A DNA stretch of 64,000 bases from Streptomyces sp. NBC_00659 (GTDB lineage: Bacteria; Actinomycetota; Actinomycetes; Streptomycetales; Streptomycetaceae): assembly GCF_036226925.1 (NCBI RefSeq), contig NZ_CP109031.1:6758001-6822000 (forward strand), given 5' to 3'. The notes beneath the pieces are model-generated. The model searched no databases. It was given only the letters and a program-made list of their open reading frames with translations, and was not told where the DNA came from. Shown piece by piece: positions 41,083 to 56,587 of this stretch (positions are counted from its first letter, which is position 1; each line of letters opens with the position of its first letter). Position numbers and translations under genes: made by a program.

Positions 41083-43932
41083 TCAACCGGAGAAGCCGAC
41101 GTGCGCGAGCCGGACAGGCCCGCGCAGTCCGAGGCGGACGTCGTGCACACCGCCGGCGGTGAACGGGGCGGTGAGGGTGCGGTAGTCGTAGGGCCCCCGT
41201 GTTCCGCTCAGCGTGACTTCGGCGACCGGCTTGCCGTCCAGCGAGACCTCGACAGCGCCCTCGCCCGCCACCTCGATCACGACACCGGTGACGCCCGCTC
41301 CGAAGTCGCACAGCCGGTACAGGAGTTCGCCCGTGCCGCCGTCCGCCGGGGTCACCGCGTCGCCCGCCGTCTTCGTACGGTCGACGATCCCGATGCCGTG
41401 CTGCTCGTCGAAGTCGGCCGCGTCCAGACCGCGTTCGCGGACCGGGCGGAACGCGCCCGGCTCGCCTTCGAGTTCGACGGTCGCGCCGAGCCGGACGTCC
41501 TCGCTGGAGGCGCCGACCAGCAGCTCGTACATGCCCGGTTCCAGGCGTCGACGGCCGTGCGCTACGTCCCAGAACTCCAGCGCGGTGAGCGGGAGGCCGA
41601 AGGTGACGGCCGTCGAGGCGCCCGGAGCGAGCCGGACCCGCCGGTGCGCCGCCAGTTCGCGGCGCGGGCGGGGCACGGACGGGGCGACCGCCCGGGTGTA
41701 GAGCTGGACGACCTCGTCGGCGGTCACGGTCGCGGTGTTCGTCACGGTGCAGGAGACGGTCAGGGCCGCGGCCTCCCTGCGGACCCGCAGATCCGTGTAG
41801 GCGAACGAGGCGTAGGACAGACCGTGCCCGAAGGGGAACAGCGCGGTCCCCTCGAAGTAGAGGTAGGTCTGCCGGCCGCCGATCACGTCGTAGTCGAGCA
41901 GACCGGGCAGGTCGTCGTCCGTGGCGTACCAGGTCTGCGGGAGGCGCCCCCCGGGGGAGACGTCCCCGGCGAGCACGCGGGCCAGCGCGGTGCCCGCCGC
42001 CTGGCCGCCGTGCGCGGTCCACAGCAGGGCGGGCAGGCCGGTGGGGTCGACCGCGTACGGGTAGGCGGAGACCAGCGCCAGCACGGTGTCCGGGTTCGCC
42101 GCGCGGGCGGCGTCCAGCAGCCGTTCCTGATGGGCGGGCAGCCGCAGGGTCGTACGGTCCTCGGTCTCGCGGCCGTTGATGTGCGGGTCGTTGCCCGCGA
42201 CGACGAGAACCACGTCGGCGGAGGCGGCGACGCGCGCCACCGCGTCCTCACCGCGTTCGGTGAACTCCGCCACGAAGATCTCGGCGTCCCCGGCCTCCCG
42301 CCCGGCAACCTTCACGCCGTCGGCGGCGACACACACGTATCCGCCCGTCCCGAGGTGCTTGAGGAGGTGGCCGCCGCGATGGGAAGCGGAGGGTTCCAGC
42401 CGGAAGGTCTCCTGGACGACCCAGCCGCCCGGCCGGTCGGCGGACGCGCGCACGAAGCCGTCGTCGGCGACCGACAGGTAGCGGCCGTCGGGGGAGCGCA
42501 GCGTGAGGACGCCCTCGCCCCAGTCGACCAGAGCCAGTTCGGTGCCCACGGCGTCGGCGGTCAGCGGGGGCAGATCCGTACGGCCGACGAGCAGCGCCGG
42601 GTCGAGCGCACCCTCGGCACCCCGGGTCTCCACCGGTGTGCCGTCCGCGGCGGGCACCGCGAGATACCGGCCGGACGCGGTCCTCAGGCGTACGCGGTCC
42701 ACGCCCTCGGCGAAGTCCACCCGCTCGGCGCCGAACCGCTCGTACAGGCCTTCCAGCGGGGTCGACCGGTGGATGAGCGTGCCGCTGTACCAGTCGAGCT
42801 TGCACTCGTCGGCGAGCAGGCCCACGACGGCGAGCCGGACGCCGGGGCGCAGCGGCAGCAGACCGTCGTTCCTGAGCAGGACGATCGCCTGCTCCGCGGC
42901 CTCCCGGGCGAGCGCGCGGTGGGCGGGCGTGTCGAACTCCCCGGTGCTCGCGTACGGGTCGAGGTCCGGGTCGAACTCGCCCAGCCGGAAGCGCACGGCG
43001 AGCTGGCGGCGGACCGCGGTGTCGATGTCGGCCTCGGTCAGCAGGCCTCGCTCCAGGGCTCCCCGGACGCGTGCGGTGATCCGCGAGCCGTCCTCGCCGT
43101 GGTCGGTGAAGCTGTCGACGCCGGCGCGGAGCGCGGCGGCGGTGGCCTCCTCGTGGGTGTCGAAGTAGTGCTCGGAGTCGACCAGGTTGGAGGGCGCGCC
43201 CGCGTCCGAGCAGACCAGCAGCTCCTGGTCGGTCCAGGTCCGCAGGTGCTCGCGCAGGTACGGCGAGACATGGTTGGGACGGCCGTTGACCAGGTTGTAC
43301 GCGGGCATCACCCCGGCGACGGAGCCCGCCTCGACGGTCTCGCGGAAGGCGCGCAGATCGTATTCGTGCAGCACGCGCGGCCGGACGGACGAGGACGAGG
43401 TGTCCCTGCTCGTCTCGTTGTTGTGCGCGAGCCAGTGCTTGAGGACCGGCGCCGTACGCCAGTAGACCGGATGGTCGCCGCGCAGCCCGCGGGTGTACGC
43501 GGTGGCGATGGCGGAGGTGAGCGCCGGGTCCTCCGAGTAGCCCTCCTCGTTGCGCCCCCACAGCGGGTGGCGCAGCAGATTGACCGTGGGGGACCAGACG
43601 TTGAGGCCCACGCGGTCGTCGCGGGCGCGCATCGCACGGGCCTCCGACGAGACGGCCTCCCCGATCCGGCGCACGAGCTCGGCGTTCCAGGTCGCGCCGA
43701 GCCCGACGGCCTGCGGGAACACCGTCGCCGGACCCATCCAGGCGACCCCGTGCAGCGCCTCCTGGCCGGTGCGGAAGGCGGGTATCCCGAGCCGCTCGAC
43801 GGGGGGCGCGTACTGGTGCAGGAACGCGACGCGTTCTTCCAGGGTGAGCCGCGTCAGCAGGTCGTCGATGCGCTTCGCGAACGGCAGGCTCGCGTCGCGG
43901 AAGGGCGGCATGGGTGGCGTCTCTGCGGTCAC
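41083..43932 (-). CDS. GH3 beta-glucosidase with fascin-like insertion (xyloglucan locus)
   Basis: A 949-residue exo-acting glycosidase without signal peptide, so predicted cytoplasmic. The GH3 N-domain has SPTVNLLRHPLWGR, LKHWLAHNNE and the nucleophile Asp243 in VCSDAGAP. The (alpha/beta)6 C-domain carries VVLVVAGNDPHINGRETEDR, and a FnIII-like domain and a small terminal domain follow. A beta-trefoil-like, fascin-type module (about 405-555: LRTASGRYLAV, LRSPDGRYLSVADDG, TGGYVCVAADG) is inserted in the C-domain where many GH3 enzymes carry PA14. Start: GTG with AAAGGGA upstream. A GAAGCGCTTC operator lies 36 bp before the start. Confidence 0.92.
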   Translation of the reverse strand: MTAETPPMPPFRDASLPFAKRIDDLLTRLTLEERVAFLHQYAPPVERLGIPAFRTGQEALHGVAWMGPATVFPQAVGLGATWNAELVRRIGEAVSSEARAMRARDDRVGLNVWSPTVNLLRHPLWGRNEEGYSEDPALTSAIATAYTRGLRGDHPVYWRTAPVLKHWLAHNNETSRDTSSSSVRPRVLHEYDLRAFRETVEAGSVAGVMPAYNLVNGRPNHVSPYLREHLRTWTDQELLVCSDAGAPSNLVDSEHYFDTHEEATAAALRAGVDSFTDHGEDGSRITARVRGALERGLLTEADIDTAVRRQLAVRFRLGEFDPDLDPYASTGEFDTPAHRALAREAAEQAIVLLRNDGLLPLRPGVRLAVVGLLADECKLDWYSGTLIHRSTPLEGLYERFGAERVDFAEGVDRVRLRTASGRYLAVPAADGTPVETRGAEGALDPALLVGRTDLPPLTADAVGTELALVDWGEGVLTLRSPDGRYLSVADDGFVRASADRPGGWVVQETFRLEPSASHRGGHLLKHLGTGGYVCVAADGVKVAGREAGDAEIFVAEFTERGEDAVARVAASADVVLVVAGNDPHINGRETEDRTTLRLPAHQERLLDAARAANPDTVLALVSAYPYAVDPTGLPALLWTAHGGQAAGTALARVLAGDVSPGGRLPQTWYATDDDLPGLLDYDVIGGRQTYLYFEGTALFPFGHGLSYASFAYTDLRVRREAAALTVSCTVTNTATVTADEVVQLYTRAVAPSVPRPRRELAAHRRVRLAPGASTAVTFGLPLTALEFWDVAHGRRRLEPGMYELLVGASSEDVRLGATVELEGEPGAFRPVRERGLDAADFDEQHGIGIVDRTKTAGDAVTPADGGTGELLYRLCDFGAGVTGVVIEVAGEGAVEVSLDGKPVAEVTLSGTRGPYDYRTLTAPFTAGGVHDVRLGLRGPVRLAHVGFSG

Positions 43933-43968
43933 GTGGTGATCCCTTTGCGGTGGGGCATCGAAGGTCTT

Positions 43969-43982
43969 TCGAAGCGCTTCGA
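43969..43982. promoter_or_regulatory. LacI-type operator TCGAAGCGCTTCGA upstream of GH3
   Basis: A perfect 14-bp palindrome, 36 bp before the GH3 start. It has the same core as the sites before the transporter operon and the LacI gene, so it is probably bound by that LacI protein. Confidence 0.85.
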
Positions 43983-44150
43983 TGCTCGATCGCCCCAGGG
44001 GTGGGTGTCAAGACGCTTGAGCGCCTCACCTCTGTTTCCCGCCAGTGATGTCAAGTGCCGCATGGATACGCTCTGTTGTCGCGCGCCTCCGAGGAATCTT
44101 GGGATCGACCCTTGTGCACCCCCAGGCGTTCACTTAACCTCGCAGCAACA

Positions 44151-44164
44151 TCGAAGCGCTTCGA
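44151..44164. promoter_or_regulatory. LacI-type operator TCGAAGCGCTTCGA upstream of the transporter operon
   Basis: The same perfect palindrome, 131 bp before the solute-binding-protein start. The two operators sit about 170 bp apart in the 363-bp divergent region (43933-44295), which holds no gene. Confidence 0.85.
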
Positions 44165-44295
44165 TTGTCGGGCTTCCCTCTTCCCAGGGCACAGTCCTCC
44201 GAGGACCGCTTCAGCTCAGGCAGATCCACTCAAGACACCGCAGCCGACGGCTCCACCGCCGGGTGTCCTGCTGTGCGCCATGAAGGGTTGACGCA

Positions 44296-45975
44296 ATGAC
44301 GCCGAACACCGCCACCACCACCCCCAGCCGGAGAAGCTTCCTCGCCTCCACGGCGGTCGCAGCGGCCGCCGTGGCCGGCGGAACGTCCCTGCTCGCCGCC
44401 TGCGGCGGAGGACAGGACGGCAGCAAGGACGGCACCACCTCGGGGAAGGACGCCCAGAAGATCCTTCCGGCGTTCGTGGCGTCGAACGTCGTCACGCCCG
44501 ACCTCCCGTCGAAGAACGGCTCGGCGGCCGGGTTCACCCGGGCGATCGACCTGGGCGCGCTGAAGACGTCCGTCCCGAAGAAGCTGGGCACCGGCAGTGG
44601 CCTGAAGATCATGTCGCCGTTCTGGGGCACCCCGCCGTCCGGCGACAACGCGTACTACACGGCCATGAACGAGGCCATCGGCGTCAAGGCGACCTGGCAG
44701 AACCAGGACGGCAACACCTACGACGAGAAACTGGGCGCGGTCCTCGCCTCCAGCGACATCCCGGACGTGGTGGTCGTCCCGGGCTGGAACCTGAACGGCA
44801 AGATCCCGAGCGCGATCAACGCCAAGTTCGCCGACCTCGGCCCGTATCTGTCGGGCGACAAGGTCAAGGCCTACCCGAACCTCGCGGCCGTACCGACCGA
44901 CGCCTGGCAGCGCTCCATCTTCGGCGGCCGGCTGCGCGCGATCCCGATGCCGGCCTCCTACGTCACGAACATCGCGCCCTTCTACCGCAAGGACATCTTC
45001 GCCAAGAAGGGCTACACCCTGCCCAAGTCGCCCGACGAGTTCCTGTCCTGGGCGAAGGAGGCCACCGACGCCAAGGCGAAGGTGTGGGCCTGCGACGACC
45101 TCAAGTGGACGGCCTTCAACATCTACGGCGTCCTCAACGGCAGTGACAAGGCCCTGTGGTGGGACCTGAGGGACGGCAAGCTGATCAACCGGATCGAGAC
45201 CGACGAGTACCTCGAAGCGCTGGAGTGGACGCGCAAGCTGTACGCGGCGGGCGTCGTCCACCCCGACGCCAAGGCAGTCAAGGGCGACGCGTCCAACCGC
45301 TTCACCGCGGGCCAGTCCCTCGTCTTCAACGGCGACCTGTCCTACTGGTACGGCTCGACGGCCGAACAGCGCACCCAGAAGACCGACTTCGAGATGGGCG
45401 CCTTCGACATCTTCGGCCCCGACGGTGGCGACCCCACACTCTGGGCGACCCAGCCCGCCGGCATCTTCACCTTCGTGAGCGCAAAGGCGTCCAAGCAGCA
45501 GATCAAGGACTTCCTCGCGCTCGCCGACTTCTGCGCGGCGCCCTACGGCACCAAGGAGTACATGCTGACGGTGTACGGCGTCGAGGGCACCGACTACACG
45601 ATCAAGGACGGCCTGCCCACCAAGACCACCAAGGGCACCAACGAGGTCAACGGCGCCTACGACTACACCGGCGACCCGGCCGCCTACCTCGCCCACCCCG
45701 ATCTGCCGGAGATCGCCAGGCTCCAGGTCGAGTGGCAGCAGCGCATGGGCGCCTTCACCAAGAAGTCCTCCTTCTACGGCCTGACCATCACCGAACCCAA
45801 CCGATGGACCAACCTCGCCAACGACTTCGAGCAGCTGGAGGACGATGTCGTCCGCGGCCGCAAGAAGATCGGTGACGTGCAGCAGGCCGTCGCGGACTGG
45901 AAGCAGAAGGGCGGCGACGACCTGCGCGCCTGGTACAAGAAGCTGCTCGACGACAATGGCTCCGCGGCCAAGTGA
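44296..45975 (+). CDS. Sugar ABC transporter substrate-binding lipoprotein (LplA-like)
   Basis: A 559-residue binding protein, unusually large, as in the LplA/YtcQ group that binds oligosaccharides. The leader has SRRSFLAST (possible Tat) and a lipobox ending LAAC. The mature region shows a family 1 solute-binding fold (LKIMSPFWGTPPSG, DVVVVPGWNLNGK, IPMPASYVTNIAPFYRKDIF). AAGGG precedes the ATG. First gene of a probable six-gene operon with two permeases, GH42, GH95 and GH12. The ligand is inferred to be xyloglucan oligosaccharides. Confidence 0.92.
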   Translation: MTPNTATTTPSRRSFLASTAVAAAAVAGGTSLLAACGGGQDGSKDGTTSGKDAQKILPAFVASNVVTPDLPSKNGSAAGFTRAIDLGALKTSVPKKLGTGSGLKIMSPFWGTPPSGDNAYYTAMNEAIGVKATWQNQDGNTYDEKLGAVLASSDIPDVVVVPGWNLNGKIPSAINAKFADLGPYLSGDKVKAYPNLAAVPTDAWQRSIFGGRLRAIPMPASYVTNIAPFYRKDIFAKKGYTLPKSPDEFLSWAKEATDAKAKVWACDDLKWTAFNIYGVLNGSDKALWWDLRDGKLINRIETDEYLEALEWTRKLYAAGVVHPDAKAVKGDASNRFTAGQSLVFNGDLSYWYGSTAEQRTQKTDFEMGAFDIFGPDGGDPTLWATQPAGIFTFVSAKASKQQIKDFLALADFCAAPYGTKEYMLTVYGVEGTDYTIKDGLPTKTTKGTNEVNGAYDYTGDPAAYLAHPDLPEIARLQVEWQQRMGAFTKKSSFYGLTITEPNRWTNLANDFEQLEDDVVRGRKKIGDVQQAVADWKQKGGDDLRAWYKKLLDDNGSAAK

Positions 45976-46001
45976 CCCAGGACTGAGGCAAGGAGAAGGC
46001 C

Positions 46002-47054
46002 GTGTCCCACAGCACGGTGCCTCGGAGCAGGGCCGGGGCCAGGGCGGGCAAGAGGACGCCGGAAGGGAGCCCGCCGGACGGCGCCACCGGACGGCGGGCC
46101 GCCGGGGGCGCCGCACAGGGCGCGGGAAAGCCGGCCTTCCGGCTGCGGTTCAGACGCGACCGCACCCTGATCCTGATGACCCTGCCCGCGATCGCGCTGC
46201 TGCTCGTCTTCACCTACATACCGGTGCTGGGCAATGTCGTCGCCTTCCAGGACTACGACCCGTATCTGAGTGACAACGGCTTCGTCGCGATCTTCGAGAG
46301 CCCCTGGACCGGCCTGGAGAACTTCCGGCGGATCTTCGCCGACTCGGCCTTCTGGCACGCGGTGCAGAACACGTTCGTCCTGTTCTTCCTCCAGCTCGTG
46401 CTCTACTTCCCGATCCCCATCGGCCTCGCACTGCTCATCAACAGCGTGGTCAGACCCCGGGTCCGGGCCGTCGCCCAGGCGGTCATGTACCTCCCGCACT
46501 TCTTCTCCTGGGTCCTCGTCGTCACCGTCTTCCAGCAGATCTTCGGCGGGGCGGGCATCATCGCCCAGACCCTGCGCCAACACGGTCATCAGGGCATCGA
46601 CCTGATGACCGACCCGGGGATCTTCAAGTTCCTGGTGACGGCCGAGGGCGTCTGGAAGGACGCGGGCTGGGGCATCATCGTCTTCCTCGCGGCCCTGTCG
46701 GCCGTCTCGCCCGACCTGTACGAGGCCGCCGCCATGGACGGCGCCGGACGGTGGCGCCGGATGTGGCACATCACCCTGCCGGCCCTGCGCCCGGTGATCG
46801 CCCTGCTCCTGGTGCTGCGCGTCGGCGACGCGCTCACCGTCGGCTTCGAGCAACTCCTGCTCCAGCGCGACGCGGTGGGACCCGGCGCCGCCGAGGTCCT
46901 CGACACCTACGTCTGGTGGAACGGCATCCGCAACCAGGACTTCGGCTACGCCGCGGCGGCCGGACTGATCAAGGGGGTGGTCGGCCTGGGGCTCGTCCTG
47001 ACCGCCAACAAGGTCGCCCATCTCATGGGCGAGCAGGGGGTGTACGAGAAATGA
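46002..47054 (+). CDS. Sugar ABC transporter permease (LplB-like)
   Basis: A 350-residue permease. The GTG start has AGGAGAAGG upstream. A basic, Gly/Ala-rich cytoplasmic tail of about 55 residues is followed by six helices. YEAAAMDGAGRWRRMWHITLPALRP is the EAA loop that docks an ATPase. The stop overlaps the next start (ATGA). Confidence 0.92.
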   Translation: MSHSTVPRSRAGARAGKRTPEGSPPDGATGRRAAGGAAQGAGKPAFRLRFRRDRTLILMTLPAIALLLVFTYIPVLGNVVAFQDYDPYLSDNGFVAIFESPWTGLENFRRIFADSAFWHAVQNTFVLFFLQLVLYFPIPIGLALLINSVVRPRVRAVAQAVMYLPHFFSWVLVVTVFQQIFGGAGIIAQTLRQHGHQGIDLMTDPGIFKFLVTAEGVWKDAGWGIIVFLAALSAVSPDLYEAAAMDGAGRWRRMWHITLPALRPVIALLLVLRVGDALTVGFEQLLLQRDAVGPGAAEVLDTYVWWNGIRNQDFGYAAAAGLIKGVVGLGLVLTANKVAHLMGEQGVYEK

Positions 47055-47986
47055 CCGCCGTGACGCACGCACCGCGCGAGAGGCCCGGCCGCCGGTCGGC
47101 ACCGCCCCGGCCGCCCTGGGAGGAGGAGCCGTCCAAGGCCGGCCTCGCGGGCAAGGGGCTCATCCTCGCCCTGGCCGCCTTCGCGATCCTGTTCCCGCTC
47201 TGGATCGTCGTCGTCACCAGCCTCCAGTCGAAGAAGACCATCGACGCGGCCGGCGGACTGGTCGTCGTCCCCAGGGGTGTCACCCTCGTCGCCTACAGGG
47301 AACTGCTCACCGGCGGCCAGGTGCAGCGCGCCGCGCTCGTCAGCGTCGGAGTGACCCTGGCCGGCACCCTGTTCAGCATGGCGGTCTCGGTCCTGTGCGC
47401 CTACGGGCTCTCGCGCGTCGGATCGCTCGGCCACCGCTGGTTCCTGATGCTGCTGCTCGCCACGATGTTCTTCGGCGCCGGCCTCATCCCCACCTATCTG
47501 CTGGTGCAGGCGCTCGGCCTCACCGACAGCTACCTCGCGTTGATCCTCCCCAGCGCGGTCAGCGTCTTCAACATCCTGGTGCTGCGGGCGTTCTTCATGG
47601 GCATCTCGCCCGAACTCGTCGACAGCGCCCGCATCGACGGCGCGGGCGACTGGCGCATCCTGTGGCAGATCGTGATGCCGCTCTCCCGGGCAGTCCTCGC
47701 GGTCATCTCGCTGTTCTACGCGGTCGGTTACTGGAGCGCCTGGTTCAACGCCTCCATCTACCTGAGCGACCAGGACATGATGCCGCTCCAGAACGTCATG
47801 ATCCAGCTGGTGCAGAAGCAGGAACGGCCGGTCGGCCTCGCCACCCAGATCAACACCGGTCAACTGTCGCCGCTGGCCATCCAGATGGCCGTCATGGTGA
47901 TGGCGCTGCTGCCGGTCGCGGTCCTCTCGCCCTTCGTCCAGCGGCACTTCAAGAAGGGCATGCTCACCGGCGCAGTGAAGGGCTGA
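47051..47986 (+). CDS. Sugar ABC transporter permease (LplC-like)
   Basis: A 311-residue permease, partner of the preceding one. Six helices follow a Pro/Arg-rich N-terminus. The EAA-type loop is ELVDSARIDGAGDWRILWQIVMPLS, and the end has PFVQRHFKKGMLTGAVKG, typical of this family. No ATPase gene is in the locus; streptomycetes commonly share one MsiK-type ATPase among sugar importers. Confidence 0.93.
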   Translation: MTAVTHAPRERPGRRSAPPRPPWEEEPSKAGLAGKGLILALAAFAILFPLWIVVVTSLQSKKTIDAAGGLVVVPRGVTLVAYRELLTGGQVQRAALVSVGVTLAGTLFSMAVSVLCAYGLSRVGSLGHRWFLMLLLATMFFGAGLIPTYLLVQALGLTDSYLALILPSAVSVFNILVLRAFFMGISPELVDSARIDGAGDWRILWQIVMPLSRAVLAVISLFYAVGYWSAWFNASIYLSDQDMMPLQNVMIQLVQKQERPVGLATQINTGQLSPLAIQMAVMVMALLPVAVLSPFVQRHFKKGMLTGAVKG

Positions 47987-48115
47987 CCCCCCCGGCGCTC
48001 CGTACCCGGGTGCCCCGGTGCCCACCCCGCGCCGCCCCCAGCTCGTCGCGGCCGACCTGCTCCTGACCAGCGGTCGGCCGCGGCGGTCCACTCCTCACCC
48101 CGAACGAGGTAGGTC

Positions 48116-50122
48116 ATGCGCACGCCCCCTGGAACCGGTCCGCAGTCCGGGCGGCCGAGCCTGAGCGACGCCACCCGGGGCCGCATCCTGTTCGGCGGCG
48201 ACTACAACCCCGAACAGTGGCCTGAGGAGATCTGGCACGAGGACGTCCGCCTCATGAAGGAGGCCGGCGTCAACTCCGTCACCCTCGGGGTCTTCTCCTG
48301 GGCCAGGATCGAACCCCGCCCCGGGGCAAGGGAGTTCGGCTGGCTGGACCGGCTGATGGACCTGATGCACGCGCACGGCATCGGCGTCGTGCTCGCCACC
48401 CCCACCTCCTCGCCGCCGCCCTGGATGGGCCGGCTGCATCCCGAGACCCTGCCCCGGGACGAGGAAGGCCGCACCGAATGGTGGGGCTCCCGGCAGCACT
48501 TCTCGCACTCCAGCGCCGTCTACCGCAGCCATGCCGCCGCCGTCACCGAGGACCTGGCGGCCCGCTACGCCGGCCACCCCGCCCTCACGATGTGGCACAT
48601 CAACAACGAGTACTGCACCGTCGACTACGGCGACGAGGCGGCCACCGCTTTCCGCCGCTGGCTCCAGGACAGGTACGGCACCCTCGAAGCGCTCAACACG
48701 GCCTGGGGAACGGCCTTCTGGGGCCAGGCCTACGACGACTGGCACGAGGTCCTCCCGCCGCGTCACGCGCACTACATGAAGAACCCGACGCATGTCCTCG
48801 ACTTCAGGCGGTTCACCTCCGACATGCTCCTGGAGTGTTACGCCGCCGAGCGGGACATCGTGCGCCGCCACAGTCCCGGCACTCCGGTGACCAGCAACTT
48901 CATGCCGATGTGGGTCGGCCAGGACGCCTGGCGGTGGGCCGAGGAGGAGGACGTCGTCTCGGTCGACCTCTATCCCGACCCGCGCGACCCGCTCGGCGCG
49001 CAGCACGGCGCGCTCGTCCAGGACATGACGCGCTCGCAGGCGGCGGGCGGTCCCTGGATGCTCATGGAACAGGCGGCCGGAGCCGTCAACTGGCGCGGTG
49101 TGAACCATCCCAAGCCGCGCGGGCTGAACCGGCTGTGGTCCCTCCAGGCTGTGGCGCGCGGCGCCGACGCCGTCTGCTACTTCCAGTGGCGGCAGTCCCG
49201 GCAGGGCGCGGAGAAGTTCCACTCCGGGATGATCGGCCACGCGGGGGAGCGGGGCCGCACCTTCCAGGAGATCAAGCGGATCGGAGCCGAACTGGCCGCC
49301 CTCGCACCCCATGTGACGGGCAATCGAGTCGAGGCGGACATCGCGATCCTGCACGACTGGAACTCCTGGTGGGCGGGAGACCATGACGGCCGGCTGTCCG
49401 CGGAGAACGACTGCGCAGAAGTCGTACGGACCTGGCACCGCGCCCTGTGGGAGGCCCACCTCACCACCGCGTTCGCCCACCCCGAGCATGACCTCTCCGC
49501 GTACCGGATGGTCGTCGTGCCCCAGTTGTACCTCCTCGCGGACGCGGCGATCGACAACCTCCTGGCCTACGTACGAGCGGGCGGAACGCTCGTCTGCGGC
49601 TTCCTCACCGGCGTCGCCGACGAGGACGACCGGGTCCGGCCGGGCGGCATGGACCAGCGGCTGCGCGACCTGTTCGGCATCCGCACGCTGCACGAATGGT
49701 GGCCGCTGGACGCGGGGGAGAAGGTCGCGTGCGACAGCTTCTCGGGCACGCTGTGGTCCGAGGAGATCGAACCCGACGGCACCGCGACCGTCGAGGCGCG
49801 GTACCGCGGCGGCGAGCTGGACGGACTGCCCGCCGTACTGTCCAAGGGCACCGCCCGCTACCTCTCCACCCTGCCCGAACCGGCCGCTCTGCGCGCACTG
49901 CTGGCGGCCGCCGCGGACCGTGCGGGCGTCCGGCCGCCACTCGGCCTGCTGCCCGACGGCGTCGAGGCCGTCCGGCGCGGCGACCTGCTCTTCCTGCTCA
50001 ACCACCGGCGCGACCCGGTGACCGTCGAGGTGCCGGGCAGCCACCGCGACCTGCTCGGCGGTGCGGCCGTGCGGGACTCCGTACGACTGGAGCGCCACGG
50101 AGCGGCGGTGCTCGCCCCATGA
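48116..50122 (+). CDS. GH42 beta-galactosidase
   Basis: A 668-residue retaining beta-galactosidase, predicted cytoplasmic (no signal peptide). GH42 hallmarks: FGGDYNPEQWPEEIW, VFSWARIEP, acid/base Glu165 in HINNEY, nucleophile Glu318 in LMEQAAGAVNWR, and a trimer/Rossmann-like C-domain (LHDWNSWW onward). The ATG has GAGGT upstream. In this locus it would remove beta-1,2-galactose from xyloglucan side chains after the fucose is gone. The stop overlaps the next start by 4 bases. Confidence 0.94.
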   Translation: MRTPPGTGPQSGRPSLSDATRGRILFGGDYNPEQWPEEIWHEDVRLMKEAGVNSVTLGVFSWARIEPRPGAREFGWLDRLMDLMHAHGIGVVLATPTSSPPPWMGRLHPETLPRDEEGRTEWWGSRQHFSHSSAVYRSHAAAVTEDLAARYAGHPALTMWHINNEYCTVDYGDEAATAFRRWLQDRYGTLEALNTAWGTAFWGQAYDDWHEVLPPRHAHYMKNPTHVLDFRRFTSDMLLECYAAERDIVRRHSPGTPVTSNFMPMWVGQDAWRWAEEEDVVSVDLYPDPRDPLGAQHGALVQDMTRSQAAGGPWMLMEQAAGAVNWRGVNHPKPRGLNRLWSLQAVARGADAVCYFQWRQSRQGAEKFHSGMIGHAGERGRTFQEIKRIGAELAALAPHVTGNRVEADIAILHDWNSWWAGDHDGRLSAENDCAEVVRTWHRALWEAHLTTAFAHPEHDLSAYRMVVVPQLYLLADAAIDNLLAYVRAGGTLVCGFLTGVADEDDRVRPGGMDQRLRDLFGIRTLHEWWPLDAGEKVACDSFSGTLWSEEIEPDGTATVEARYRGGELDGLPAVLSKGTARYLSTLPEPAALRALLAAAADRAGVRPPLGLLPDGVEAVRRGDLLFLLNHRRDPVTVEVPGSHRDLLGGAAVRDSVRLERHGAAVLAP

Positions 50123-52395
50123 CCGGCGAGGCCCGCTCGGGCCCCCACGCGGACCGCTCCCCGACGGAGGGCGGCCCCGGGTCCGCCCCCGTCCACGGCA
50201 CCTGGGAACCCCGGCCCGCCGCCCGCTGGGAGGACGCCTTCCTGAGCGGGAACGGCACACACGGCGCCATGGTGTTCGGCGATCCGAACGATGACCGGGT
50301 CATCGTCAACCATCACCGTCTGGTCCGCCCCAACGGCAGCGCGGACGCCCGCCCGCCCGAGCTCGCCGACCGCCTCGCCGACGTACAGGACCGGCTGCTC
50401 GCCGGGGACGTGAACGCCGGCGAGGACTTCACCGACGGACGGCCGCTGCTGTGGGTACAGCCGTTTCATCCGGCGTTCCAGGTGCGGTTGCGCCGCCCCG
50501 CCGAGGAGGCGCGCGGCTACCGCCGCGAGGCCGACTTCACCACCGGGGTCGTCCGCACCGTGTGCGGTGACCGGCGGAGCGAGGTGTTCGTCTCGCGCGC
50601 CGACGACGTGATCGCGCAGTACGTGACCGCCCCCGGCCCCGCGGCCGAGGTGACGCTGGACCACCGGCTGCCGGGAGCGCCCGCGGACCTGGCGGTGGAG
50701 CACGGAGCCGTCCACACCCCCGAGGGTGCCCTGCTCACCCTGCGCTCCCGCTATCCGGGCAGCGACCTGGCGTACACCGGGGTCACCCTCCTCGTCACGG
50801 ACGGTGACACCCGTCCCACCCCTTCGGGCGTACGGGCCGAGGGCGCCCGCTCGATGCTGCTGCTCACCCGGGTGCGCCGGCACCCGGGCCACCTGGACGC
50901 CCGCGCGGAGTTCCGCGCGCTGCGGGATCTGCTGCCCGGGTCCGGTCACGGCGCCGAGGACATCGAGAACGCCCACGCGCACCTGCTCTCCCGCCACACC
51001 GCCCTGCACCGCGCCGCCTATCTGCGGGTCACCCTCGACCTGCACGCCGATCCCGCCGAACGGGCCCTGCCCGGATCGGAGCTGGTCCGGCGCCCCAAGA
51101 GCCCCGCCCTTGTGGAACGGCTCTTCGCGGCCGGCCGGTACCACCTGCTGTCGGCGGCCGGCACGCTGCCGCCGCGGCTGACCGGCCTGTGGACCGGCGA
51201 CTGGGACACCGCCTGGTCCGGGGCGTTCACCACGGACGCCAACCTCAATCTCCAGACGGCGTCGGCCGCCGCGGCCGCCCTCCCCGAGGTCACAGAGGCG
51301 CACGCGGCCCTGGTCCACGGCCAGTTGCCGCACTGGCGGGACAACGCCCGAGCCGTCTTCGGCGCACGCGGGGCACTCGCCCCCGCCCACACCGACGGCG
51401 AGTCCGGCCACATCTACCACCTCAGCCGCGCGTACCCGCTGCACGTGTGGACCGCGGGCGCCGACTGGCTGCTCAAGCCGCTCGTGGACCACGACGAGAC
51501 CCGCGGCGCCCGCGACCCGCGGCTGGCCACGGCGCTCGCCGAAGCCGCCCGCTTCTACGAGGACTTCCTGACCCGGACCGACCAGGACGGCCACCTGGTG
51601 ATCGTGCCGTCCTACTCCCCGGAGAACCGTCCCGCGAACGCGAGCTGGGTCACCGTGAACGCCGCCATGGACCTCTCGGCGGCCCGCCACGCCCTGTGCA
51701 CGGCGGCCGCGTATCACCCGGGCCCCGACGCCGAGCGCTGGCGGGCGCTCGCCGACCGGCTGCCGCCGCACCGGGTCAACTCCGAGGGCGCGCTCGCCGA
51801 GTGGGCCCGTCCCGGACTCCTCGACACCTACGACCACCGGCACCTCAGTCACCTCTACGGCGTCTGGCCGCTCGACGAGATCAACCCCTACGACACCCCC
51901 GGGCTCGCCGCGGCGGCCCGTCGCGCCCTCGAACTGCGCGGCGCCGAGAACGACTCGGCGCACGGCCACCTCCATCACGCCCTGGTGGCCGCCCGGCTGC
52001 GGGACGCCGGGCGGGTGGCGAAGGCCCTCGACAACGTCCTGGCCGGGGACTTCTTCCACGTCTCCCTGATGAGCGGCCACTACCCGGACCGGCACGTCTA
52101 CAACGCCGACGCGGCCCACACCCTGCCCGCCGTCGTCATCGAGGCACTCGTCCAGTCCACGCCGCGGCGGCTCGTCCTCTTCCCGGCCCTCCCCACGAGC
52201 CTGCCGAGCGGTGAACTCCGGGGCATCCGCACGAGGTTCGGCGCGGAGGCCGACCTCACCTGGACCCCCGACGGCGCCACCGTCGTACTGCGGCCGGGCC
52301 GCACCTGCCGCATCGAACTCCGGACTTCCGCCGGCGCGCGACCGCTCTCCCTGAGCGCCGGAGAAGACCGCGTCCTCACCCTGGGGCCGCGGTAG
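50119..52395 (+). CDS. GH95 alpha-L-fucosidase/alpha-L-galactosidase-like
   Basis: A 758-residue protein matching GH95 over its length: the start WEDAFLSGNGTHGAMVFGDP, the catalytic region TGLWTGDWDTAWSGAFTTDANLNLQ, and VIVPSYSPENRP with the presumed acid Glu502. HLSHLYGVWPLDEINP and SAHGHLHHALVAARL follow, and LPSGELRGIRTRFG lies near the end. No signal peptide. The family inverts alpha-1,2-linked L-fucose, the cap of fucosylated xyloglucan. The start overlaps the GH42 stop (ATGA). Confidence 0.88.
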   Translation: MTGEARSGPHADRSPTEGGPGSAPVHGTWEPRPAARWEDAFLSGNGTHGAMVFGDPNDDRVIVNHHRLVRPNGSADARPPELADRLADVQDRLLAGDVNAGEDFTDGRPLLWVQPFHPAFQVRLRRPAEEARGYRREADFTTGVVRTVCGDRRSEVFVSRADDVIAQYVTAPGPAAEVTLDHRLPGAPADLAVEHGAVHTPEGALLTLRSRYPGSDLAYTGVTLLVTDGDTRPTPSGVRAEGARSMLLLTRVRRHPGHLDARAEFRALRDLLPGSGHGAEDIENAHAHLLSRHTALHRAAYLRVTLDLHADPAERALPGSELVRRPKSPALVERLFAAGRYHLLSAAGTLPPRLTGLWTGDWDTAWSGAFTTDANLNLQTASAAAAALPEVTEAHAALVHGQLPHWRDNARAVFGARGALAPAHTDGESGHIYHLSRAYPLHVWTAGADWLLKPLVDHDETRGARDPRLATALAEAARFYEDFLTRTDQDGHLVIVPSYSPENRPANASWVTVNAAMDLSAARHALCTAAAYHPGPDAERWRALADRLPPHRVNSEGALAEWARPGLLDTYDHRHLSHLYGVWPLDEINPYDTPGLAAAARRALELRGAENDSAHGHLHHALVAARLRDAGRVAKALDNVLAGDFFHVSLMSGHYPDRHVYNADAAHTLPAVVIEALVQSTPRRLVLFPALPTSLPSGELRGIRTRFGAEADLTWTPDGATVVLRPGRTCRIELRTSAGARPLSLSAGEDRVLTLGPR

Positions 52396-52430
52396 CCCCC
52401 GCACTTCCCCCCACCCATGAAAGGGACCTC

Positions 52431-53147
52431 ATGGCGCTTCGTACACGGAACAGGATCACTATGACCCTGCTGGCCCCCGCGCTCGCGCTCGGCGCGACGA
52501 TCGGCCTCGCCTCGGCCCCCGCCCAGGCCGCCGTCTGGTCATCCTGCGACCAGTGGGGCAACACCACCCTGAACGGCTACACGCTCTACAACAACATCTG
52601 GGGCTCCGGCGCGGGCAGCCAGTGCGTCTGGGCCAACTCCGGCACCAACTGGGGAGTCTGGGCCAACCACCCCAACACCGGCGGCATCAAGTCCTACCCG
52701 AACTCCAAGAAATACGTCGGCAAGACGATCTCGGGGCTGTCCTCCCTCACCAGCACCTACAACGTCACCGTCCCGTCCTCCGGTGCGTACAACACCTCGT
52801 ACGACATCTGGGACACCGACTACGACTACGAGACCATGCTCTGGGTCAACTACAACGGCGCCGTCGGCGCGCTCGGCACCTCGCAGGGCACGCTCACGCT
52901 GAACGGCAACACCTGGACCGTCTACAAGGGCAACAACGGCGCGAACGACGTCTTCTCGTTCCTGCGCACCTCGGACTCCACCTCCGGCACCATCAACATC
53001 CTCCCGATCATGAGGTGGATAGCGAACACCAAGGGCTGGATGTCCAGCGCCGAGACCATCGGCGACGTGCAGTTCGGCTTCGAGATCACCTCCTCCGCGG
53101 GCGGTCTCGACTTCGCCGCCAACAACCTGACGGTCAGCAGCAGCTGA
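52431..53147 (+). CDS. Secreted GH12 endo-beta-1,4-glucanase, probable xyloglucanase
   Basis: A 238-residue exported enzyme: signal peptide 1-33 (AQA-A), then a single GH12 jelly roll with no carbohydrate-binding module. The nucleophile is Glu134 in YDYETMLWVN and the acid/base Glu218 in FGFEITSS. YDIW and NNIWGSG are conserved family segments. Being the only secreted enzyme of the locus, it would cut the xyloglucan backbone outside the cell. It follows GH95 by 35 bp; the ATG has GAAAGGGA upstream. Action on plain cellulose or mixed-linkage glucan is the alternative. Confidence 0.9.
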   Translation: MALRTRNRITMTLLAPALALGATIGLASAPAQAAVWSSCDQWGNTTLNGYTLYNNIWGSGAGSQCVWANSGTNWGVWANHPNTGGIKSYPNSKKYVGKTISGLSSLTSTYNVTVPSSGAYNTSYDIWDTDYDYETMLWVNYNGAVGALGTSQGTLTLNGNTWTVYKGNNGANDVFSFLRTSDSTSGTINILPIMRWIANTKGWMSSAETIGDVQFGFEITSSAGGLDFAANNLTVSSS

Positions 53148-53195
53148 CCCGTGCGCCCAGGCGCGGCCGGCCCCTCCCGGGACCGGCCGCGTCCG

Positions 53196-55238
53196 CTATC
53201 CGGCCACCGGCAGCCGCGCCCCGTCCCGCAGGAACAACGGGATCCGGTCCAGCGGCGCGTCCACCGTCACGGCCGCGCCCCCCTCGTACGACACCCCGGT
53301 CCACGCGTCCGTCCAGCGCGCCCCCGCCGGGAGATACGCGGTACGGGCCGTCGCACCCGCGGTGAGGACCGGCGCGACCAGCAGGTCCCGGCCGAGGAGG
53401 TAGGCGTCGTCCACCGACCAGGCCGCCTGGTCGCCCGGGAACTCCAGGAGCAGCGGGCGCATCACCGGCAGCCCCTCCTCGTGGGCTTCCCGCATGACGT
53501 CCAGCACGTACGGCTTCAGGCGCTCGCGCAGCCGCAGGTACTTCTCCATGATCGCGCCGGCCTCCTCGCCGTACGACCAGACCTCGTTCGGGCCGCCGGT
53601 CATGCCGGGACCGAGCGGCAGGCCGGGGTCGCGGAAGCCGTGCAGCCGCATCAGCGGCGACAGCGCGCCGAACTGGAACCAGCGCACCATGACCTCGCGG
53701 TACGCCGGGTCGTCCGGGTCGCCGCCGTGGAAGCCGCCGATGTCGGTGTTCCACCAGGGGATCCCGGACAGCGCGGTGTTGAGACCCGCGGCGATCTGGC
53801 GGCGCAGGGTCGCGAAGTCGGTTCCGATGTCGCCCGACCACAGGGCGGCCCCGTAGCGCTGGCTGCCCGCCCAGGCCGAGCGGTTGAGGGAGATGATCTC
53901 GCTCTCCCCGGCGGCGCGCAGGCCCTCGTAGAAGGTGCGGGCGTTCTCGCGCGGGTAGAGGTTGCCCACTTCGAGTCCCGGGCCCGCGTGGTAGCGCAGG
54001 TTCTCGGAGAAGCCCGGCTTCAGCTCCGGCTCGCAGGCGTCCAGCCAGAAGGCCGAGATGCCGTACGGGTCGAGATAGTTGTCCTTCACGCGGGACCACA
54101 GGAAGTCCCGCGCCTCGGGGTTCGTGGCGTCGTAGAAGGCCACCTGGACCGTGGAGGCGACCTGCTTGTCCGGCCAGTCGGCGTGCGCCATCGGCCCGTA
54201 CTCCGTGCCGATGAACCAGCCCCGCTGCTCCATGAGCTGATGGTTCTCGGAGAGCGGCGAGACCGAAGGCCAGACCGACACGACCAGTTTGACGCCGAGA
54301 CCGGCGAGTTCGGCCTGCATGGCCGCCGGGTCGGGCCACTCGGCCGGGTCGAACTTCCAGTCGCCGAGGTGGGTCCAGTGGAAGAAGTCGCAGACGATCA
54401 CCGACAGCGGAAGGCCCCGCCGCTTGTACTCCCTCGCCACCTCCAGGAGTTCGTCCTGGGTGCGGTAGCGCAGCTTGCACTGCCAGAAACCGGCCGCCCA
54501 CTCGGGCAGCATCGGTGTCCGGCCGGTCGCCGCGCTGTAGCGGCGCTGGGCGTCGGCCGGGGTGCCCGCGGTGATCCAGTAGTCGATCTGCCGGGCCGAG
54601 TCGGCGACCCAGCGGGTGCCGTTGCCCGCGAGCTCCACCCGGCCGACGGCCGGGTTGTTCCACAGGAGGGTGTAGCCGCGGCTGGAGGTGAGCACCGGAA
54701 CGGTGACCTCGGCGTTGCGCTGGATCAGGTCCAGGACCGCGCCCTTCTGGTCGAACAGTCCGTGCTGGTGCTGCCCGAGGCCGTACAGCCGCTCGCCGTC
54801 GTACGCGGCGAAGCGCTGCTCCAGGCGGTGGTGGCCGTTGCCGGTGGGGGTGTACAGCCGTGGGCCGGGCCACCAGAAGTGGGCGCGCTCCTCGGCGAGG
54901 AGTTCACCGCCGTCCGCGGTGCGGGTGAAGCGGATCAGCCCCTCGGCGCTCACCTCGACGGTGAGTGCTCCGACCGTCAACCGGCCCTCTCCGCCGATGA
55001 GTTCCAGGGTGCTCGTGGTGTCCTCGGGCCGGTCGAGCAGCGCTCCCGGCAGGCCTTCGAGCAGCGGACCGCCGAGCCGGGCGCGGACCCGCACGGCATC
55101 GGGGCCCCACGGCTCGATCCGGACGGTCTCCGTACGGCCGCTCCACTCCAGAGCGCCGTCCCGTTCACGGAAGGTGCCGACGGTCGGGGAGGACTGCGCG
55201 AGGCTCACCTGGGGCTGGACTGCGGCGGACTGATTCAC
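53196..55238 (-). CDS. GH31 alpha-xylosidase (YicI-like)
   Basis: A 680-residue GH31 enzyme, predicted cytoplasmic. The nucleophile is Asp400 in FWLDACEPE, and the acid/base Asp470 in WSGDIG. VIVCDFFHWTHLGDWKFDP has the wide -1 site Phe/Trp pattern of alpha-xylosidases rather than alpha-glucosidases. It would remove alpha-1,6-xylose from the non-reducing end of xyloglucan oligosaccharides. The GTG start has AGGAG upstream. It lies 209 bp downstream of the LacI gene on the same strand, beyond a hairpin. Confidence 0.9.
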   Translation of the reverse strand: MNQSAAVQPQVSLAQSSPTVGTFRERDGALEWSGRTETVRIEPWGPDAVRVRARLGGPLLEGLPGALLDRPEDTTSTLELIGGEGRLTVGALTVEVSAEGLIRFTRTADGGELLAEERAHFWWPGPRLYTPTGNGHHRLEQRFAAYDGERLYGLGQHQHGLFDQKGAVLDLIQRNAEVTVPVLTSSRGYTLLWNNPAVGRVELAGNGTRWVADSARQIDYWITAGTPADAQRRYSAATGRTPMLPEWAAGFWQCKLRYRTQDELLEVAREYKRRGLPLSVIVCDFFHWTHLGDWKFDPAEWPDPAAMQAELAGLGVKLVVSVWPSVSPLSENHQLMEQRGWFIGTEYGPMAHADWPDKQVASTVQVAFYDATNPEARDFLWSRVKDNYLDPYGISAFWLDACEPELKPGFSENLRYHAGPGLEVGNLYPRENARTFYEGLRAAGESEIISLNRSAWAGSQRYGAALWSGDIGTDFATLRRQIAAGLNTALSGIPWWNTDIGGFHGGDPDDPAYREVMVRWFQFGALSPLMRLHGFRDPGLPLGPGMTGGPNEVWSYGEEAGAIMEKYLRLRERLKPYVLDVMREAHEEGLPVMRPLLLEFPGDQAAWSVDDAYLLGRDLLVAPVLTAGATARTAYLPAGARWTDAWTGVSYEGGAAVTVDAPLDRIPLFLRDGARLPVAG

Positions 55239-55414
55239 GTGGATGCTCCTGAAGGAGTGCAGACATGAAGGAGTACGGACGGGGAGTGCGGCCGGGATTC
55301 CGTCCGGGGTGGGGCGGCAAAGGGCGGTACAGGGAGAGCACGCGGACAGCGGCTGCCCGGCAGGGGCACGAAGTCCGTGAGGCCCGCGAGGCCCGCGCAG
55401 GGAGTGCCGGCGGG

Positions 55415-55437
55415 TGCCGGCGGGTGCGCCGCCGGCA
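55415..55437 (-). terminator. Nine-bp hairpin after the LacI gene
   Basis: TGCCGGCGG and CCGCCGGCA arms around GTGCG, 10 bp after the regulator stop. It may partly uncouple the regulator from GH31. A GTGCCGGCGG direct repeat flanks it. Confidence 0.55.
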
Positions 55438-55447
55438 GGAGCCCGGC

Positions 55448-56461
55448 TCAGGGAGCGGCCGGCGCCGGCCCCGTGCTCGCCCGTACCGTCAGCTCCGGGG
55501 CGATCAGTACGACTTCGTCCTTGCCGCGTCCTTCGAGCTTGGCGATCAGATGCTCGACGGCATGGCGGCCCATGTCCTGGGCGGGGATGGCGACCGACGT
55601 CAGCCGCACCGAGGACTGGGTGGCGACCTGGTCCGGGCAGATCGCGATCACCGAGACGTCCTCGGGGACGGCACGGCCCTTCTGGCGCAGCAGCGCGAGC
55701 AGCGGTTCGACCGCCGACTCGTTCTGCACGACGAAGCCCGTGGTGCCCGGGCGCTCGTCGAGGATGCGGGCGAGGGTGAGGGCCATCGCGTCGTAGCCGC
55801 CCTCGCAGGGCCGGTGCAGCACCCGCAGCCCCAGCTCGCGGGAGCGGGCACGCAGTCCGTCGAGCGTCCGCTCGGCGAAGCCGGTGTGCCGCTCGTAGAC
55901 GGCGGGCGCCTCGCCGATGACAGCGATGTCACGGTGGCCGAGCAGCGTCAGGTGCTCGGCGCACAGCGCGCCCGTCGCCCCGAAGTCGAGGTCGACGCAG
56001 GTCAGGCCGGTGGTGTCGGCGGGGAGGCCGATGAGCACGGACGGCTGGTCGGTCTCACGCAGCAACGGCAGCCGCTCGTCGTCGAGTTCGACGTCCATCA
56101 GGATCATCGCGTCGGCGAGCCCGCTGCCGGTGACCCGGCGCACCGCGTCGGGCCCCTCCTCGCCGGTGAGCAGCAGGACGTCGTAGCCGTGGGTCCGGGC
56201 GTTGGTGGCCACCGCGATGGCGATCTCCATCATCACGGGTACGTACATGTCGGTGCGCAGCGGGACCATCAGCGCGATGATGTTGGACCGGCTGCTCGCC
56301 AGGGCGCGGGCGCCCGCGTTCGGGTGGTAGCCGAGTTCCTGGATGCTCTGCTCGACCCGCTGCCGGGTGCTCGCGGAGATGGACCGCTTGCCGCTGAGGA
56401 CATAGCTCACCGTGCTCGCCGAGACTCCGGCGTGCTGGGCGACCTCGGCGAGGGTGACCAT
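55448..56461 (-). CDS. LacI-family transcriptional regulator of the xyloglucan locus
   Basis: A 337-residue repressor. The HTH is at residues 3-25 (TLAEVAQHAGVSASTVSYVLSG), a hinge helix follows (NAGARALASSR), and a periplasmic-binding-protein-like sugar-sensing domain makes up the rest. The ATG has GGGAGAG upstream. Two copies of the GAAGCGCTTC operator lie 17 and 102 bp before the start, so autoregulation is likely; the same operator precedes GH3 and the transporter operon. The inducer is probably a xyloglucan oligosaccharide or breakdown sugar. Confidence 0.93.
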   Translation of the reverse strand: MVTLAEVAQHAGVSASTVSYVLSGKRSISASTRQRVEQSIQELGYHPNAGARALASSRSNIIALMVPLRTDMYVPVMMEIAIAVATNARTHGYDVLLLTGEEGPDAVRRVTGSGLADAMILMDVELDDERLPLLRETDQPSVLIGLPADTTGLTCVDLDFGATGALCAEHLTLLGHRDIAVIGEAPAVYERHTGFAERTLDGLRARSRELGLRVLHRPCEGGYDAMALTLARILDERPGTTGFVVQNESAVEPLLALLRQKGRAVPEDVSVIAICPDQVATQSSVRLTSVAIPAQDMGRHAVEHLIAKLEGRGKDEVVLIAPELTVRASTGPAPAAP

Positions 56462-56478: not shown

Positions 56479-56492
56479 GTGAAGCGCTTCGA
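56479..56492. promoter_or_regulatory. LacI-type operator proximal to the regulator start
   Basis: GAAGCGCTTC core followed by GA, but GT instead of TC on the left edge; 17 bp before the regulator ATG, overlapping the expected promoter or leader. Confidence 0.75.
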
Positions 56493-56563: not shown

Positions 56564-56587
56564 GGCTGTCGAAGCGCTTCGACAGCC
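56564..56587. promoter_or_regulatory. 24-bp perfect palindromic operator (GGCTGTCGAAGC half site)
   Basis: The two 12-base halves are exact reverse complements, the longest operator copy in the window. It lies 102 bp before the LacI gene and 240 bp before the acyl-CoA dehydrogenase gene in a 366-bp divergent region that holds no gene. Confidence 0.85.

Follow-up and report, generated by a model that had tools for sequence, protein, structure and literature searches.

A probable xyloglucan utilisation locus with a LacI-family regulator and a shared palindrome in Streptomyces sp. NBC_00659

Streptomyces are dominant soil decomposers, and the question raised here is which plant glycan one of them handles with a locus of nine genes, and how these genes are controlled. 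The locus lies at positions 41083-56461 of a 64,000-nt stretch of Streptomyces sp. NBC_00659 DNA (NZ_CP109031.1, 6,758,001-6,822,000), hereafter the window. An earlier note on this DNA had read it as a complete candidate locus for fucosylated xyloglucan. Gene calls and Pfam confirmed all nine genes at the positions and with the families proposed there; the glycoside hydrolases (GH) of families 3, 42, 95, 12 and 31, both permeases and LacI scored above the Pfam gathering thresholds. Judging from sequence, we consider it highly probable that the genes form a xyloglucan utilisation locus under one LacI, with a second cluster elsewhere in the genome on the same palindrome and with the enzyme activities as predicted; xyloglucan itself is very likely the substrate. 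Growth with tamarind xyloglucan as the only carbon source is reported for four of six Streptomyces strains (PMC11475409). In the open-licence literature searched, within the parts of those texts that were available, no Streptomyces xyloglucan import system or regulator was found described.

The strongest evidence for the substrate is outside the window. A GH95 scan gave 243 relatives, and the loci of the best 80 were compared; 79 of them carry a Streptomyces title, the remaining one is labelled 'Actinobacteria bacterium', and some are ended by contig edges. Gene set and order are largely kept: GH3 was labelled in 73 of the 80 loci, the binding protein in 75, the permeases in 76 each, GH42 in 78, GH12 in 75, GH31 in 57, and LacI in 67. 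Besides, 59 of the 80 encode a secreted protein, roughly 700 residues long, whose best PDB relatives are GH74 xyloglucanases (up to 492 bits). Both neighbours were called in 75 loci, and 57 of these have this GH74 inside the operon, between permease 2 and GH42. It is missing at that junction in the window and in 18 of the 75 loci. The NBC_00659 genome holds one GH74 elsewhere (47% identical, with CBM2), adjoining GH48, GH5 and GH6 genes. In Xanthomonas, likewise, some xyloglucan utilisation loci (XyGULs) are reported to have lost GH74, other endo-enzymes remaining (PMC8245568). A second, distinct GH12 gene lies downstream of LacI in 21 of the 80 loci (for example L010, 16571-17377) and is absent from the window locus.

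The GH12 enzyme of the locus points to the same substrate. Its best PDB relative is NopAA (140.8 bits; the next scores 89), which is described as highly active, exclusively on xyloglucan (PMC7303141). This kinship would suit a specificity for xyloglucan over cellulose. The two catalytic glutamates, E134 and E218, are invariant in 76 sequences. Many GH12 enzymes are nevertheless cellulases by their PDB names, and GH42 and GH95 have other glycan substrates as well; on this footing, GH12 could be an ordinary cellulase and the exo-enzymes could serve mixed plant oligosaccharides, the substrate being another beta-glucan or cello-oligosaccharide. We regard this as very improbable, and a cellulose or general beta-glucan locus was rejected because orthologous operons carry GH74, GH12 is nearest to a xyloglucan-specific enzyme, and the cellulose-type palindrome is missing. 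The CebR-type palindrome, taken in its assumed consensus form, has no site within two mismatches in the window, and an exact copy precedes GH48, close to the GH74 of the genome. Furthermore, an unbranched glucan would leave the alpha-xylosidase without a role.

If xyloglucan is the substrate, what holds the genes together? The exact 14-mer TCGAAGCGCTTCGA occurs four times in the 9.66-Mb genome, three of them in the locus; the fourth stands about 75 bases (our own reading) before the binding-protein gene of the second cluster. Within two mismatches, the palindrome is found in 73/73 intergenic regions between GH3 and the binding protein and in 67/67 scorable regions upstream of LacI, 66 of which have two sites. 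In an alignment of 74 intergenic regions, the window included, conservation is complete at both operator sites and averages 0.77 over the other columns. The conservation of the palindrome at both promoter regions across orthologous loci bears out the earlier note's LacI regulator with shared operators; repression by LacI through this palindrome, like its inducer, is what we infer. Over 61 Streptomyces genomes, 132 exact sites were counted, compared with 13 for the reversed pattern. At least three sites are present in 22/22 genomes with GH95 versus 4/39 without (Fisher 7e-13), and GH74 in 22/22 versus 11/39 (Fisher 1e-8), p-values that overstate independence because the genomes are related. One of the 22, G024, has a lower-scoring GH95 on a different contig from its operator sites. 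Within GH3, a site at 43865 resembles the operator with three mismatches; as it falls in conserved coding sequence, it was rejected as an operator.

The second cluster (G000 C1, about 3,975,400-3,981,900; L097 7389-13862) encodes a binding protein, two permeases, a YicI-type GH31 and a LacI. It resembles the window locus in this gene content, in the operator and in the kinship of the regulators (55% identical over 331 residues). It differs in its transporter family and in its GH31, which passes the curated alpha-xylosidase model PRK10658 with 1238 bits against a cut-off of 606. Twenty operator regions from other Streptomyces were inspected among the sites listed, mostly away from the main cluster. 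Thirteen stand in a xyloglucan-type context: the second cluster (five), LacI or the main locus (four), GH74-type genes (three) and one GH12-like gene (L168; 33% identical to GH12, no Pfam match). Another precedes a GH36-GH43 pair. As a tentative reading, quite possible though short of probable, the locus would be half of an older, genus-wide xyloglucan regulon, in which two paralogous LacI proteins, one per importer, read the same 14-bp palindrome and either class of sugar could control the genes for the other; copies of the palindrome are also found ahead of GH74/GH5 in other Streptomyces and of GH74/GH3 in other families of the class. The importer classes would then be large xyloglucan oligosaccharides and small alpha-xylosides such as isoprimeverose.

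Some operator copies fall outside this pattern. In L166, L169, L175 and L176 (position 5001), from four Streptomyces genomes, the exact operator lies within a DHDPS-family coding sequence, near a dehydratase-like gene and ABC (ATP-binding cassette) permeases; it may be either a coding coincidence or an internal site. L173 (G025) and L174 (G018) retain LacI and the operator, although the xyloglucan locus has largely disappeared or been cut down to a shortened GH3.

Which side chains could the cytoplasmic enzymes remove? GH31 matches the alpha-xylosidase MeXyl31 with 681.7 bits, followed by 6dru (346) and 7kmp (340), and its nucleophile D400 lies within WLDACEPE. By manual counting, F285 aligns with W453 of XacXyl31, an aromatic residue said to exclude C6 sugars (PMC8245568); MeXyl31 also has Phe there. 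The best PDB relative of GH42 is 9ta3, a beta-galactosidase LacZ. By sequence, a predicted cytoplasmic GH31 alpha-xylosidase and a predicted cytoplasmic GH42 beta-galactosidase are present, as in loci of the Ruminiclostridium cellulolyticum kind. For GH95, the best PDB relative is 7kmq, whose row names a Glyco_hyd_65N_2 protein only and which is probably XacAfc95, from the xyloglucan locus of Xanthomonas; the closest solved relative would then be a xyloglucan-locus fucosidase. E502, N375 and D664, presumably the catalytic positions (acid Glu, Asn and Asp, by BbAfcA numbering), are invariant in 21 sequences.

The GH95 family also includes alpha-L-galactosidases (PMC8245568), and the first Asn of the catalytic pair is mostly Asp here. 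Both points would suit an enzyme for alpha-L-galactosides or other fucosylated glycans, with fucosylated xyloglucan not a substrate. This is rather unlikely in our judgement: 8zbv, whose chain name is alpha-L-fucosidase, shares this Asp; the specificity position, T371 by alignment, matches the threonine of the fucose-specific XacAfc95 (PMC8245568); and GH95 co-occurs with GH74 and the operator. A natural non-fucose version of the locus exists in L178, which has GH74, GH42, GH3, a YicI-type GH31, importer and LacI, and no GH95. Fucosylated xyloglucan, the substrate named by the earlier note, is therefore likely, because the operon includes a GH95 with invariant acid/base residues and this sister locus does without it.

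Which enzyme would release the backbone glucose is less clear. The earlier note gave this role to GH3, and it is left unproven because GH3 carries Glu58 (xxEALHG) at its -1 subsite marker, the residue of beta-xylosidases and not the Asp of beta-glucosidases. In five alignments against a profile of seven GH3s from several families, position 58 is Glu in two PDB (beta-)xylosidases and Asp in two beta-glucosidases and one unnamed GH3. In GH3 enzymes, Glu replacing Asp at this position is reported to mark beta-xylosidases; the change from Glu to Asp raised activity on p-nitrophenyl-beta-glucoside, and bifunctional enzymes with Glu are also described (PMC6987092). Thus, within a xyloglucan locus, GH3 could be a cytoplasmic beta-xylosidase/alpha-L-arabinosidase for pentosyl-decorated xyloglucan, glucose being removed by another beta-glucosidase. 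E58 is invariant in 18/18 Streptomyces sequences and 7/7 across families, beta-xylosylated and arabinosylated xyloglucans exist (PMC10952531), and other glucosidase candidates of the genome number three full matches to GH1 and eight to GH3 besides this enzyme. In contrast, Glu3A, the GH3 of the R. cellulolyticum cluster, is a beta-glucosidase that takes off glucose in alternation with GH31 (PMC4780118), and the window locus has no other beta-glucosidase gene. We find the pentosidase explanation possible but on balance unlikely; this enzyme could act on the backbone, on pentosyl side chains or on both, and the conserved residue raises the question of whether pentosyl-decorated xyloglucans are substrates too. 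Its architecture comprises an insert of about 150 residues in the GH3_C domain, an Fn3-like domain and a C-terminal CBM6. The insert (window 42100-42900) gave a weak, below-cut-off match to Fascin (beta-trefoil); other GH3 enzymes have a PA14 insert there.

How would the oligosaccharides enter the cell? The binding protein has no Pfam family match and weak PDB sequence matches. Its model folds nearest AlgQ1/AlgQ2, 5gub and FusA, members of cluster G for large oligosaccharides, and its length also fits this class (about 500 residues or more). It is thus probably of the cluster G type, with xyloglucan oligosaccharides as the predicted ligands; the first solved xyloglucan-binding protein is also reported with this fold (PMC12710961). 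Gene calling gave no ATPase gene in the locus. Elsewhere in the genome, two UgpC-type ATPases score above the curated cut-off, and either could energise the importer, by analogy with the shared ATPase of Anaerocellum bescii. A CUT1 importer and lipoprotein binding protein with the ATPase in trans is a feature of R. cellulolyticum-kind loci.

Athe_2052-2054 of A. bescii, as described in PMC12710961, matches the window locus in the cluster G binding protein (551 versus 559 residues), CUT1 permeases, distant ATPase and nearby GH31. Binding of XXXG by Athe_2052 was measured there (Kd 14 nM), whereas the window protein is known as a model, and GH42 and the putative fucosidase are not part of that transporter locus. 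The R. cellulolyticum cluster (Gal42A, Xyl31A, Glu3A) shares the CUT1 importer without its own ATPase gene, the lipoprotein binding protein, cytoplasmic GH42, GH31 and GH3, and import of large xyloglucan oligosaccharides, according to the published accounts (PMC4780118, PMC8576529). In those accounts, the cellulosome cuts outside and the two-component XygS/XygR regulates, whereas the window locus has a secreted GH12 and a LacI with a palindromic operator. Unlike that cluster, it also has GH95 in the operon; according to the legend of Fig. 12 in that work, some distant clusters do include alpha-fucosidase genes. The Xanthomonas XyGUL (GH74, GH31, GH35, GH95) has related GH95 and GH31 enzymes, with TonB-dependent uptake, GH35 in place of GH42 and an acetylesterase, as reported in PMC8245568. 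Bacteroides XyGULs are likewise dedicated to xyloglucan with GH31 and GH3 (GH95 in some), but have SusC/SusD-type proteins where the window locus has an ABC importer; no Pfam match to such proteins was found among the nine locus proteins. Importing large and digesting inside is therefore a strategy already known from R. cellulolyticum and A. bescii. Less familiar are the repressor, the shared operator and the fucose-removing enzyme inside the operon; the LacI/operator regulon and its two-locus design look new.

Taken together, the secreted GH12, helped by the GH74 encoded elsewhere, would cut xyloglucan outside the cell, and the cluster G lipoprotein and two CUT1 permeases, with an ATPase from elsewhere, would bring in branched oligosaccharides. 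In the cytoplasm, GH95 would take fucose, GH42 galactose and GH31 the non-reducing-end alpha-xylose, alternating with GH3 and/or other genomic beta-glucosidases that release glucose. LacI would repress its own unit with GH31, the GH3 gene and the importer operon via one 14-bp palindrome, which would also control the second cluster of alpha-xyloside importer, YicI-type alpha-xylosidase and LacI. The comparative evidence supports the earlier note on xyloglucan as the substrate, outside endo-cutting, oligosaccharide import, cytoplasmic exo-enzymes and LacI control. Judged by N-terminal hydrophobicity, GH12 (signal peptide) and the binding protein (a twin-Arg lipoprotein-like start) alone have export-type N-termini, and no such stretch was seen in GH3, GH42, GH95 or GH31; the backbone-cutting GH12 is thus the sole enzyme with a signal peptide, as claimed before. 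A 'selfish' mode is plausible, though the secreted GH12 shows no visible anchor. The word 'complete' does not hold, because the ATPase gene is absent, the operon has lost GH74 and the operator also serves a second cluster, and the claim that every linkage is covered rests on family names. What emerges is a named operator, a predicted two-locus regulon and a genome marker testable in ordinary laboratory strains.

Beyond Streptomyces, GH95 (at 1e-60) was found in 38 of 393 genomes of the class, 22 of the 38 being outside the genus; ten of these 22 were compared. Six, with GH95 33-35% identical, have GH42 (6/6), GH31 (5/6, plus a partial GH31 at the edge of the sixth), GH74 (3/6) and GH3 (3/6); in three, the importer is of the type seen in the second cluster (62-74% identity). 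An exact operator is expected about 4e-5 times per 20 kb. L185 has one 212 bases ahead of GH74, and L188 has one 135 bases ahead of GH3. In L186, a copy with one mismatch precedes GH3 by 34 bases; within two mismatches, none was found in L183, L184 or L187.

Several observations weigh against the xyloglucan reading. Four higher-scoring GH95 relatives from outside the genus stand in unrelated neighbourhoods, without xyloglucan genes or operator. Six of the 20 operator regions inspected in other Streptomyces lack a xyloglucan context, four of the six being the DHDPS-family cases, and the view that every operator copy in other genomes marks a regulon member was rejected for this reason. Around the genome's GH74, a region of 18 kb holds no operator at up to two mismatches. 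Of the 67 loci having both LacI and GH95, 11 lack GH31. The best NCBIfam scores of GH3 are to beta-xylosidase models, none near the cut-off, and its Glu58 is of the same type. The confidence of the binding-protein model is moderate (predicted local distance difference test, pLDDT, 69.7).

Among the four non-xyloglucan relatives, three share 42-44% identity with the window GH95 and one shares 33%, compared with 33-35% for those in xyloglucan loci of other families. From these values alone there are hints that GH95 was recruited twice. Independent double recruitment was set aside as a conclusion, since the tree is unrooted: it separates the three groups, each by a branch of its own, but gives no order and cannot tell which two are sisters.

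Table 1. Features of the locus in window coordinates.
Feature	Position	Strand or side	Remarks
GH3 exo-glycosidase	41083-43932	-	949 residues, no signal peptide; Pfam
Operator TCGAAGCGCTTCGA	43969-43982	GH3 side of divergent promoter region	exact copy
Operator TCGAAGCGCTTCGA	44151-44164	importer-operon side	exact copy
Lipoprotein-type substrate-binding protein	44296-45975	+	559 residues; modelled fold, export-type N-terminus
CUT1-type ABC permease 1	46002-47054	+	Pfam
CUT1-type ABC permease 2	47051-47986	+	Pfam; 4-base overlap with permease 1
Empty junction, GH74 site in most orthologous loci	47987-48115		locus comparison
Predicted GH42 beta-galactosidase, cytoplasmic	48116-50122	+	Pfam, PDB match
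GH95 alpha-L-fucosidase candidate, cytoplasmic	50119-52395	+	4-base overlap with GH42
GH12 endo-enzyme, secreted	52431-53147	+	Pfam 70.8 bits, cut-off 27
Predicted GH31 alpha-xylosidase, MeXyl31 type, cytoplasmic	53196-55238	-	Pfam, PDB match
LacI-family repressor	55448-56461	-	same strand as GH31 and upstream of it
Operator GTGAAGCGCTTCGA	56479-56492		2 mismatches; 18 bases before LacI start codon
Operator TCGAAGCGCTTCGA	56569-56582		exact; upstream of LacI

Strand and spacing suggest three transcription units: GH3 alone, the run from the binding protein through both permeases, GH42 and GH95 to GH12, and LacI-GH31, whose genes are 209 bases apart. A scan for sigma-70-type promoters gave no match and terminator-like sites were at chance level, a result that is uninformative for a GC-rich genome.

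A second SecA gene (window 58920-61694; TIGR00963, 1090 bits) adjoins the locus, likewise in several related loci; the other SecA gene of the genome is at 4036161-4038596. Two inverted, secreted-looking Tachylectin-domain proteins (window 35566-36855 and 37349-38533) differ in their C-termini, one of which is aggregation-promoting-factor-like.

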